From assembly GCF_002795865.1 (NCBI RefSeq), contig NZ_CP024920.1, forward strand, positions 1,151,001 through 1,215,000: DNA of 64,000 nt. Direction: 5' to 3'. A program made the translations under genes and the position numbers. Source of the DNA: Qipengyuania seohaensis. Its GTDB lineage: Bacteria > Pseudomonadota > Alphaproteobacteria > Sphingomonadales > Sphingomonadaceae. Below are positions 54,451 to 59,247 of the stretch, piece by piece; the first letter of the stretch is position 1; every line of letters starts with the position of its first letter. Below the pieces are notes generated by a model, which worked only from the letters and a program-made list of their open reading frames with translations, did no database searches and had not been told where the DNA came from.

Positions 54451-56094
54451 TTACCAGCCGAAGATGATGCCGACACGGCCACCGACCTTGCCGTTCTTGT
54501 TCAGGCCGCCGCCGATACCGGCAGTGATCGCAACCTTGTCGCTGACACGGATGCCGGCGTTGGCTGCGATTGCATTGGCACCTTCGTAGAAGCCGCCTGC
54601 AACCGACAGGTTGAAACGCGTGTCGGGCAGGAAGCCCATGCCGCCCAGCGCGATCGCGGTAGCGGTCGAGCTGGAGATACGGTCATCAAGCTGGTCGATG
54701 CGTGCTTCGACGAGACCGACGCGACCACCAAGACCGTCGATCTGCGTCTGCAGAGCGGCGTCGCCAGCGATACGGGCGTTTTCTTCTGCAGTCAGCTGAT
54801 CGAGCAACTGGGCGTCGGCAGCGGCACGCGCTTCCGATTCAGCGACGATCGCATCGGCGTTCGCGGTGATGCGCGTGTCGTATTCGACCAGCGTTTCTTC
54901 GACGACCGTGATGCGAGCCGAGTTGTCGGCGATGTTCGCAGCATTGGTCGCGATGTCGGCGGTGTTGGTCGTGATACGCTCTTCGTGATCGACCAGAGCA
55001 GCGATGACTTCGACTTCGCTGTTCGTCTCATCAGCGCGCGGGTCGCCGAGAAGAGCCTGCGAAGCAGCAGCGATCGCAGCGTTCTGATTTTCGGCAGCCG
55101 GGACGAGAACGTCCTGAGCACGTGCGTAGGTGTTGGTCGCATCATCGAGAGCATCGAACTGTGCCTGCTCCACAACAGCCTGGTCGGCAGCTGCGGTCGC
55201 GTCGTTGCTGAGCGTGTTGAGGCCCGAAGCGTCGGCAGTGTAGCCAGCGTCGGTGATGGCGTCGACGAAGTCAGTGTTCGAAGCGAGCGAGGTGTCGAGT
55301 GCCGTGAGGGCATCCGAGAAGTCGTCGCTTGCAACTACAGTCGCGTCGGCTGCGGCATTGAACGCGGTCTGTGCGGCGGTCAGGTCTGCAGCGGCATCGT
55401 TGGCAACCGCCAGCGCGTCAGCACGGTCTGCCTCGGCAGCATCCAGAGCGAGCTGTGCGTCGGCGCGATCGGCCAGAGCGTCGTTCAGAGCTGCGAGGTT
55501 CGCAGTGGTCTGGTTGGCGTCATAGTTTGCCTGCGCGGTGTCGACAGCATCCTGCGCGTCCGACAGATCGGTCTGCGCAGCGCCGAGAGCGACGTTGGCG
55601 TCGGTCAGGTCGTCAGCAGCCGCATCGAATGCAGTCTGCGCATCGGTCTGGGCGGCCAGAGCTTCCGCTTCGGCAGCCTGAGCGGCTTCGAGTGCAGCTT
55701 CGGTCGTAGCAACATCTTCGAAAGCGGCGAGGTTGTCGTCGGTCAGCGTGGCTTCGACTGCAGTCTGATCTGCTGCAAGCGTATCTGCCGCATCGTTCGC
55801 AGCATCGAGTTCTGCCTGCGCAGTTTCGACTTCGGCGTCGGTCGGAGCGGTCTGTTCGATCTTGCTATCGAGATTGTCGTAGGCTCCGTCGTTGATACCC
55901 GCATAGCCATAGCTACTTGCGAGATAATCTTGGTCGCCCGGCTCGAAGCAGGAAACATTGCCCGATGCATCACGGAAGCAAGTTTCGTCCGAAGCCTGTG
56001 CCGCCGCGGGCGAAGCAACAAGAAGCGCGCCCCCTGCGACGCTGGTCATCAGGCCGGCAACAGCTGCACGACCCGCAATATTCATAGTACGCAT
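54451..56094 (-). CDS. Trimeric autotransporter adhesin (YadA-like), lysine-free passenger
   Basis: 547 residues from ATG 56094 (GAGGGG upstream). The signal peptide ends about AAAQA, then a short region with two Cys (DETCFRDASGNVSCFEPG). A very acidic Ala/Asp/Thr-rich coiled coil of about 350 residues and a YadA-like stalk (TTNTADIATNAANIADNSAR) follow. The C-terminal anchor has RIDQLDDRISSSTATAIALG and GGLNKNGKVGGRVGIIFGW, the YadA beta-barrel end. After an early Lys near residue 77 the passenger contains no Lys or Trp until the barrel. It is divergent from the MarR-like gene. Confidence 0.9.
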   Translation of the reverse strand: MRTMNIAGRAAVAGLMTSVAGGALLVASPAAAQASDETCFRDASGNVSCFEPGDQDYLASSYGYAGINDGAYDNLDSKIEQTAPTDAEVETAQAELDAANDAADTLAADQTAVEATLTDDNLAAFEDVATTEAALEAAQAAEAEALAAQTDAQTAFDAAADDLTDANVALGAAQTDLSDAQDAVDTAQANYDANQTTANLAALNDALADRADAQLALDAAEADRADALAVANDAAADLTAAQTAFNAAADATVVASDDFSDALTALDTSLASNTDFVDAITDAGYTADASGLNTLSNDATAAADQAVVEQAQFDALDDATNTYARAQDVLVPAAENQNAAIAAASQALLGDPRADETNSEVEVIAALVDHEERITTNTADIATNAANIADNSARITVVEETLVEYDTRITANADAIVAESEARAAADAQLLDQLTAEENARIAGDAALQTQIDGLGGRVGLVEARIDQLDDRISSSTATAIALGGMGFLPDTRFNLSVAGGFYEGANAIAANAGIRVSDKVAITAGIGGGLNKNGKVGGRVGIIFGW

Positions 56095-56215
56095 AAAGTA
56101 ACCCCTCAAAAGGTATTTAACATTTATCAAACCAGGCGATCCGAGGACCCAGTTGACGTGGAGCTACGCGATTTGTAGGGGCATTCATAACGCTTTTGAG
56201 GTCTTATATTATATA

Positions 56216-57769: not shown

Positions 57770-58561
57770 CTACAGCCAGCCGGCTGCCTTGAGATCGTTT
57801 GCGCGGTTACGCGACACCGGTGCTTCGAGCCCGCTGCTGAGCACCAGCCGGAGGTTGCGCCCATCACGCTTGACCTCCTCCACGGCATCACGGGCAACCC
57901 ACCAGCTGCGATGTGTCTGCAGGCCTTCGATCTCGTCCAGTTCTGTTATGGCATCGCCCAGACGCATGAGGACCAGTTCGCTGCCAAGACCAGTATGCGC
58001 GCGGACGTAGTGGTCCTCCATTTCCAACGCGAGCAGGTCGGTCCCCAGGTGGACCGGCAAGCGGTCGAAGAAGCGCGAAGGTCCAGTCTCCGGCGCTGGC
58101 GCTGCAGCCACCGGGACTGGCGGCGACGGCGCACCTCCAGTGCCTCGCTGGCCAAGAGTAAAGAGGGCGGTGATCATTCCTCCTACGACGGTTACGTAGA
58201 AATAATGCGCCATGGCTGCGGAGAGTGAAGGCACGCGTATGGTACCGGGTAGCTGGGGCAGCACCCATACGAGTACCGACATGAAAGCGGAGGCGAGCAA
58301 GACCCCTGCGATCCGCAAGGCCCAGACAGGCAGCGCCAGCGCCGGTGCGATCCGCTGCGCGACGCCGTCAATGGGGGCATAGAGCGCATAACCGACATAA
58401 GCGAAGCCGACCCAGACAATGAGACGCAGCGCCAACGGCTCGCGGAAGCTTCCAAACGGTCCGATCAAGGCAAGAACGACGCCAATGGCGCCCATTGCGG
58501 CGAGATCGATCAGAAGCTTACGCAGGCGCGCTTGACGCTCAGTGAGTTCAGCGTGTGCCAT
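57770..58561 (-). CDS. Membrane-bound LytTR family transcriptional regulator
   Basis: 263 residues from ATG 58561. Four membrane helices (about 18-37, 46-66, 75-100, 117-140) are followed by a linker rich in Pro/Ala and a C-terminal LytTR DNA-binding domain (about 160-260) with TDLLALEMEDHYVRAHTGLG and LQTHRSWWVARDAVEEVKRD. LytTR domains bind direct repeats, typically near CGTT. It is divergent from DUF2306; the shared region has striking inverted repeats. Confidence 0.9.
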   Translation of the reverse strand: MAHAELTERQARLRKLLIDLAAMGAIGVVLALIGPFGSFREPLALRLIVWVGFAYVGYALYAPIDGVAQRIAPALALPVWALRIAGVLLASAFMSVLVWVLPQLPGTIRVPSLSAAMAHYFYVTVVGGMITALFTLGQRGTGGAPSPPVPVAAAPAPETGPSRFFDRLPVHLGTDLLALEMEDHYVRAHTGLGSELVLMRLGDAITELDEIEGLQTHRSWWVARDAVEEVKRDGRNLRLVLSSGLEAPVSRNRANDLKAAGWL

Positions 58562-58719
58562 TGCGCGCCAGATTACTGCCCATTCGCGTTTCGTAAAGTG
58601 GCAAAGCCCCGTAAATCCGCGCATTTCACGAAACGCCTTGCCACTTCGCGCAAGCGCAGTTGCGGGCGAATGGGCACGCGGCATTCTCGGCATCGAGCAG
58701 TGACAAACGGAGACTTTCG
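58562..58719. promoter_or_regulatory. Divergent LytTR/DUF2306 intergenic region with interleaved inverted repeats
   Basis: Three perfect inverted repeat pairs: TGCCCATTCGC (58577-58587) with GCGAATGGGCA (58666-58676); GCGTTTCGT (58586-58594) with ACGAAACGC (58628-58636); AAGTGGCAA (58596-58604) with TTGCCACTT (58638-58646). The inner pairs are offset by exactly 10 bp on both sides. An operator array for the adjacent LytTR protein is inferred; a folded leader RNA is the alternative. Confidence 0.7.
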
Positions 58720-59247
58720 ATGACCGCCCATTTCGCCAACTCGCAATCCAAACCAGCTGGCTTCGACCTCGACCAGATGACCCGCCGGATGGTGGTGGCA
58801 ATTGGCGGCGCAATGACCGCGATCTGCCTCTACGCCATCGGGCGTGCTCTGCTGGGGATGACGCCGGACCTGCCGCATCTCAAGAACATCGCACTGGTCA
58901 TCCATATCACGACAGTCATTCCTTGCCTTCCGCTCGGAATGTACCTGCTGTTGGCGCGCAAGGGTACAGCGCGGCACAAGCAGCTCGGTAAGATGTGGGT
59001 AGCGCTTATGGTCATCACCGCGACGTCCACGATCTTCCTCTACGAGGATTTCCGCTTCTCGTGGATCCACATCTTCGTGCCGATCACATACCGCGCAGCG
59101 TGGTTGATCGTCAGCACGGCGCGCAAGGGCGACATCGTCCGCCATCGCAAGGAGATTATCGGCCTCTTCTTCGGCGCGCTGATGATTCCTGGTATCGCCG
59201 CTGTCGCGATCCCCGACCGTCTGATGAATGTAATGATTTTCGGCTAG
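58720..59247 (+). CDS. DUF2306-like membrane protein
   Basis: 175 residues with about four to five helices: AIGGAMTAICLYAIGRALLG, a segment ending PLGMYLLLARKG, WVALMVITATSTIFLYEDF and RHRKEIIGLFFGALMIPGIA. The HKQLGKMW and RHRKE blocks are typical of DUF2306 proteins. The function is unknown. Start ATG 58720 follows a GGAG. The stop shares CTAG with the convergent purT stop. It is divergent from the LytTR regulator, its probable controller. Confidence 0.8.
   Translation: MTAHFANSQSKPAGFDLDQMTRRMVVAIGGAMTAICLYAIGRALLGMTPDLPHLKNIALVIHITTVIPCLPLGMYLLLARKGTARHKQLGKMWVALMVITATSTIFLYEDFRFSWIHIFVPITYRAAWLIVSTARKGDIVRHRKEIIGLFFGALMIPGIAAVAIPDRLMNVMIFG

Follow-up and report, generated by a model that had tools for sequence, protein, structure and literature searches.

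A predicted operator array of a membrane-tethered LytTR regulator between divergent LytTR and DUF2306 genes in Qipengyuania seohaensis

The canonical site of LytTR transcription regulators consists of two direct repeats of about 9–11 bp with a spacer of 10–13 bp. Variants of this layout have been described for several systems. The one-component LytTR protein HigX from the alphaproteobacterium Caulobacter crescentus (PMC13384398, PLoS Genet, July 2026), which has four transmembrane helices at its N terminus, has a ChIP-Seq motif that is an imperfect inverted repeat, ATGTTASC-GSTACCAT, with its halves back to back and no spacer; it acts on many targets, and a COG4188 hydrolase is conserved next to it. 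CoxC from Afipia carboxidovorans (PMC11347149) is also a membrane-bound alphaproteobacterial one-component LytTR regulator, with a seven-helix MHYT sensor; its operator, three direct repeats TTNNNGCN at 18–21 bp, overlaps the −35 and represses. In the LytTR Regulatory Systems (LRS; HdrRM and BrsRM; PMC6193735), the LytTR regulator gene stands beside a gene for a small membrane protein, regulator and inhibitor being separate proteins of one operon, which is autoregulated via direct repeats near the promoter; the same source places LytTR direct repeats about 10 bp upstream of the −35. The soluble response regulators AlgR of Pseudomonas aeruginosa (PMC4064291) and YpdB of E. coli (PMC4847170) read the words CCGTTCGTC, at scattered sites, and GGCATTTCAT, at direct repeats, respectively, and the introduction of one paper permits ‘direct or inverse’ LytTR repeats (PMC4847170). 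LytTR sites are mostly direct repeats, and a convergent dyad is unusual for the family.

Here we present an analysis of a 158-bp intergenic region (58562–58719) within a window of 64,000 nucleotides, the whole stretch of DNA analysed, from the single-contig, 2.94-Mb genome of Qipengyuania seohaensis. The flanking genes diverge, as the original prediction had described: a LytTR regulator gene lies on the minus strand (57770–58561; 263 aa), and the gene of a DUF2306 membrane protein on the plus strand (58720–59247; 175 aa). The inverted repeats between them quite probably constitute, on the sequence evidence set out below, an operator array of the membrane-tethered LytTR regulator that is autoregulatory and shared with the divergent DUF2306 gene.

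The regulator carries a LytTR domain at residues 175–260 (PF04397, E 2e-15). Its AlphaFold2 model (mean pLDDT 89.8) displays four long helices followed by a LytTR fold, and model and alignment together delimit four long hydrophobic N-terminal helices (residues 2–33, 43–75, 79–103 and 113–141) that are predicted to form a four-helix membrane region. A sequence search of solved structures with this protein returned no match, and Foldseek matched it to the solved LytTR domains of Bacillus cereus, ComE and AgrA (3d6w, E 5e-6; ComE 4cbv; AgrA 4xqj/3bs1). The protein thus has the C-terminal fold of the LytTR transcription regulators and, with predicted N-terminal transmembrane helices fused to it, would fall in the membrane-bound one-component class of HigX and CoxC, unlike the soluble AlgR and YpdB. 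By contrast with the LRS, where the regulator is followed by a separate membrane inhibitor in one operon, the LytTR protein has a predicted membrane part of its own, and the gene pair is divergent, with a dyad as its main site. Elsewhere in the window, the minus strand at 54451–56130 encodes a protein of 559 aa whose long, coiled-coil-like repeats are rich in Ala, Asp and Thr and whose C-terminal end looks YadA-like by eye; an NCBIfam search with it gave no match.

The product of the divergent gene matches DUF2306 (PF10067, E 1.9e-6) with 28.6 bits, just under the Pfam cutoff of 31.6; the 20 homologues aligned with it all reach DUF2306 E values of 1e-3 or lower. Its model is a helical bundle (mean pLDDT 85.5), for which a fold search found no credible match among solved folds. 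Four histidines are invariant in the alignment of DUF2306 proteins of the clade (H62, H86, H117 and H142), and these could bind metal or heme. In the literature, LytTR and DUF2306 were found mentioned together in one halotolerance genome comparison of related genera, once each.

The intergenic region holds a 27-bp imperfect palindrome, TGCCCATTCGCG-TTT-CGTAAAGTGGCA (58577–58603, centre 58590), hereafter referred to as op1, which is the candidate main site for a LytTR dimer. Its two half-sites (58577–58588 on the plus strand and 58592–58603 on the minus strand) converge on a 3-bp centre, and it lies 16–42 bp upstream of the LytTR start codon, ending 15 bp before it. Among the 17 genomes of the genus that carry the gene pair, a gap-free intergenic alignment of about 110 bp runs from op1 past the candidate −35, and op1 is its most conserved part. 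We found op1 in 80 alignable relatives. Across 81 sequences, a mean of 7.53 of 12 pairs matched at the op1 centre, against an average of 3.1 and a maximum of 4.72 at other centres; op1 columns carry 1.72 bits of information on average, compared with 0.65 for the linker that follows and 0.32 for the flank. This symmetry is carried by fixed columns. Compensatory covariation of the arms was rejected as the main evidence, since pairing across the set is not above the expectation from column composition, and arms that change together were seen in single cases only (for example, GTACC...GGTAC in L107). The palindrome is cleaner in more distant relatives, as in CCCGTTCGCG-CTT-CGTGAACGGG of L104, and the asymmetric centre CTT reads AAG at three loci (L109, L111 and L119), where the site is reversed relative to the genes.

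HigX is the nearest precedent, but orientation, spacing, target and clade all set the present site apart from it: the HigX halves abut and, should TACCAT there correspond to CCRTT here, point outward, whereas those of op1 converge on their 3-bp centre, and the conserved neighbour here is DUF2306. The half-site resembles the published words of AlgR, YpdB and RcoM1 (TTCNNGCA). The AlgR word is similar to CCRTTCRCG here, and the YpdB word has GCATTTCA in common with half-site 3 (described below), although the main site here is a dyad, unlike the scattered sites of AlgR and the direct repeats of YpdB.

op1 accompanies LytTR genes. Of 60 genus genomes, the same 17 hold the LytTR orthologue, the DUF2306 gene and op1, and the genomes without the LytTR gene are also without op1; the gene pair is patchy in the genus and always comes with op1. 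At 10 of 24 distant loci, a strict core, TTSRCG-NNN-CGYSAA, lies no more than about 300 bp upstream of the LytTR gene, with no match in the distal sequence of the same 24 loci and a shuffle mean of 0.005. No DUF2306 gene was found near these ten within the fetched stretch of about 1 kb, so a change of neighbour leaves op1 in place beside the LytTR gene. A slightly looser core lies within 300 bp upstream of LytTR at 77 of 79 named loci from Qipengyuania and its family and is absent from 248 kb of other neighbouring sequence, these sets overlapping in species and not being independent. Two named loci (L241 and L257) and several distant LytTR loci have no recognizable op1. In this genome, op1 occurs once with zero mismatches, a single occurrence that suits autoregulation at one local target better than control by a global factor. 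A wider regulon was considered here and dropped: matches with two mismatches numbered 29, against 17 for a reversed-pattern control, which is not clearly higher (these are strand hits, the real site being counted on both strands), and we claim no second target.

Could op1 instead be bound by some other transcription factor that is widely conserved, or act as a special type of promoter element, with the LytTR gene merely one of its targets? The LytTR start does lie nearer to the most conserved block than DUF2306 does, and the block could belong to the LytTR promoter. Against this, near-perfect copies of op1 are found almost only at LytTR loci, op1 is missing where the LytTR gene is missing, the half-site resembles known LytTR motifs, and numerous genomic sites would be expected for a global factor. 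We therefore consider this alternative unlikely, although it is the most serious of those weighed here, and infer that the LytTR protein is the probable binder.

Two further features were noted among the family loci. Several distant LytTR genes (L168–L187) face small secreted-looking proteins instead of DUF2306, with the same operator type; these proteins are about 160 aa long and have a signal peptide followed by a motif like MNCSAG/MRFECGAG. In addition, operators with a GTACC-type left arm accompany a changed predicted loop in the LytTR protein, in which R-x-D/E-R-A replaces R-D/E-G-R-N/T (three of three proteins; loci L100, L101 and L107 with L165, L154 and L155). This may be a specificity switch, and the correlation may represent one evolutionary event.

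The original prediction had drawn attention to three perfect inverted repeats in this region, two of them interleaved. Arm read-out and an exhaustive search both recovered them: repeat C, of 11 bp, pairs TGCCCATTCGC (58577–58587) with GCGAATGGGCA (58666–58676), repeat A, of 9 bp, pairs GCGTTTCGT (58586–58594) with ACGAAACGC (58628–58636), and repeat B, also of 9 bp, pairs AAGTGGCAA (58596–58604) with TTGCCACTT (58638–58646). As claimed, together they span exactly 100 bp, and the step from A to B is exactly 10 bp on the left and on the right. They are more than chance: three perfect inverted repeats of at least 9 bp arose in none of 1,000 dinucleotide shuffles of the intergenic region, at least one such repeat arising in 85 and one of at least 11 bp in 11 (shuffles of 157 bp). 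As conserved units, however, they do not stand, A and B being perfect in none of 80 relatives and C in one. Mean arm pairing in these relatives is 0.56 for C and 0.53 for A, against 0.28 and 0.25 for a slid control, and 0.35 for B, equal to its best slid control (0.36). The prediction had made its case depend partly on conservation; the perfect repeats are not kept, yet the 12-nt half-sites beneath them are, at fixed positions. The perfect repeats are thus largely private to this genome, and the underlying sites older and shared.

These half-sites were located with a 12-nt position weight matrix, built from both op1 arms of the relatives with the window left out and then run over the window. 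It matched at 58577 (plus) and 58592 (minus), the two halves of op1, and at three further half-sites, 58619 (plus), 58639 (plus) and 58665 (minus). Half-site 3, GCGCATTTCACG (58619–58630, plus; p 1.3e-3), holds the A′ region; half-site 4, TGCCACTTCGCG (58639–58650, plus; p 5e-6), holds the B′ arm; and half-site 5, TGCCCATTCGCC as read on the minus strand (58665–58676; p 1.3e-4), holds the C′ arm. Counted at p < 2e-3 in the 80 relatives, matches at the same offset were detected in just 42%, 35% and 51% of them, respectively; background offsets have a median of 0, none exceeding 7% except the back-strand reading of half-site 3 (21%). A weaker match lies over the LytTR start codon (58556–58567).

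All repeat arms fall on copies of this one word. The left arm of C is half-site 1, the left arm of B is half-site 2 and the left arm of A spans the op1 centre, and on the right A′, B′ and C′ correspond to half-sites 3, 4 and 5. The left arms of C and B are thus the two halves of one imperfect palindrome, which had been missed, and five copies of one word ordered forward, reverse, forward, forward, reverse must give the interleaved arm order. The suggestion that protein sites are displayed on one face of the DNA holds in part: the sites look like protein sites, most likely for LytTR judging by their word, and several lie on one helical face, the forward half-sites starting at 58577, 58619 and 58639, in steps of 42 and 20 bp that are near whole turns. 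Compared with the canonical LytTR layout, op1 is a convergent dyad, whereas half-sites 3 and 4 form a weakly conserved direct pair in the same orientation, 20 bp from start to start. A direct triplet with 21-bp phasing, as for RcoM, was rejected, the expected site near 58604 being missing.

The interleaved order had also raised the idea of a pseudoknot. A transcribed structured RNA, either a pseudoknot or a leader, that regulates DUF2306 would accommodate the A-B...A′-B′ topology and the outer 11-bp helix, which is perfect here, but is most improbable: an Rfam search at E up to 5 returned only weak microRNA matches far below threshold, folding is no better than that of shuffles (z −1.05 and −0.55 on the two strands), and the pairings are lost in relatives, where changes in the arms fail to restore them, so that neither compensatory pairing nor better-than-random folding is seen. 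Equally improbable is an origin by chance or from a small mobile element, although the perfect outer repeats, 100 bp from end to end, could pass for the 11-bp terminal repeats of a MITE. Position-fixed conservation refutes this reading. The alignment is gap-free from op1 to half-site 5 in 17 genus members, the repeat region is single copy in the genome and three such repeats are absent from the shuffles.

If the repeats are the operator array of the membrane LytTR regulator, a LytTR dimer tethered through its N-terminal four-helix bundle would read op1 through a half-site of about TGCCCRTTCRCG around the 3-bp centre. Given how near op1 lies to the LytTR start codon, binding should place the dimer over the regulator's own promoter and hold its expression down, and autorepression is likely. 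A candidate −10 region of the LytTR gene (58570–58576, minus) may lie between op1 and the start codon; it is CTAG-type in relatives and degenerate here, and the conserved TAG columns adjoin op1. With half-sites 3–5 the array would reach across the DUF2306 start region. There, conserved TTGC and G-CA columns in 56 relatives suggest a candidate promoter (58660–58688, plus), with a TTGC-type −35 at 58660 and a −10-like region near 58682–58688. Half-sites 3 and 4 would stand just upstream of this −35, as in other LytTR-activated promoters; the candidate −35 comes 9 bp after half-site 4, near the rule of repeats about 10 bp upstream of the −35, which argues for activation of DUF2306. Half-site 5 would lie in the spacer between −35 and −10, which argues for repression when it is filled. 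Activation is slightly more likely than repression, and occupancy of the sites would switch the LytTR and DUF2306 promoters together.

More speculatively, and with doubt outweighing confidence, membrane-tethered LytTR dimers of the Sphingomonadales might read a convergent 27-bp palindrome, the extra half-sites letting several anchored protomers pin the divergent promoter region to the membrane and switch it with a histidine-rich DUF2306 partner. If true, this would be a reading geometry for which we found no description for the LytTR fold in the literature.

Membrane LytTR regulators are typical of alphaproteobacteria, yet we found only two that have been studied in the literature, and how they read DNA is hardly known. 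The present analysis provides a sharp, family-wide predicted operator for an uncharacterized clade, giving palindrome, half-site word, spacing and target genes, and would tie the DUF2306 membrane protein to a regulator.
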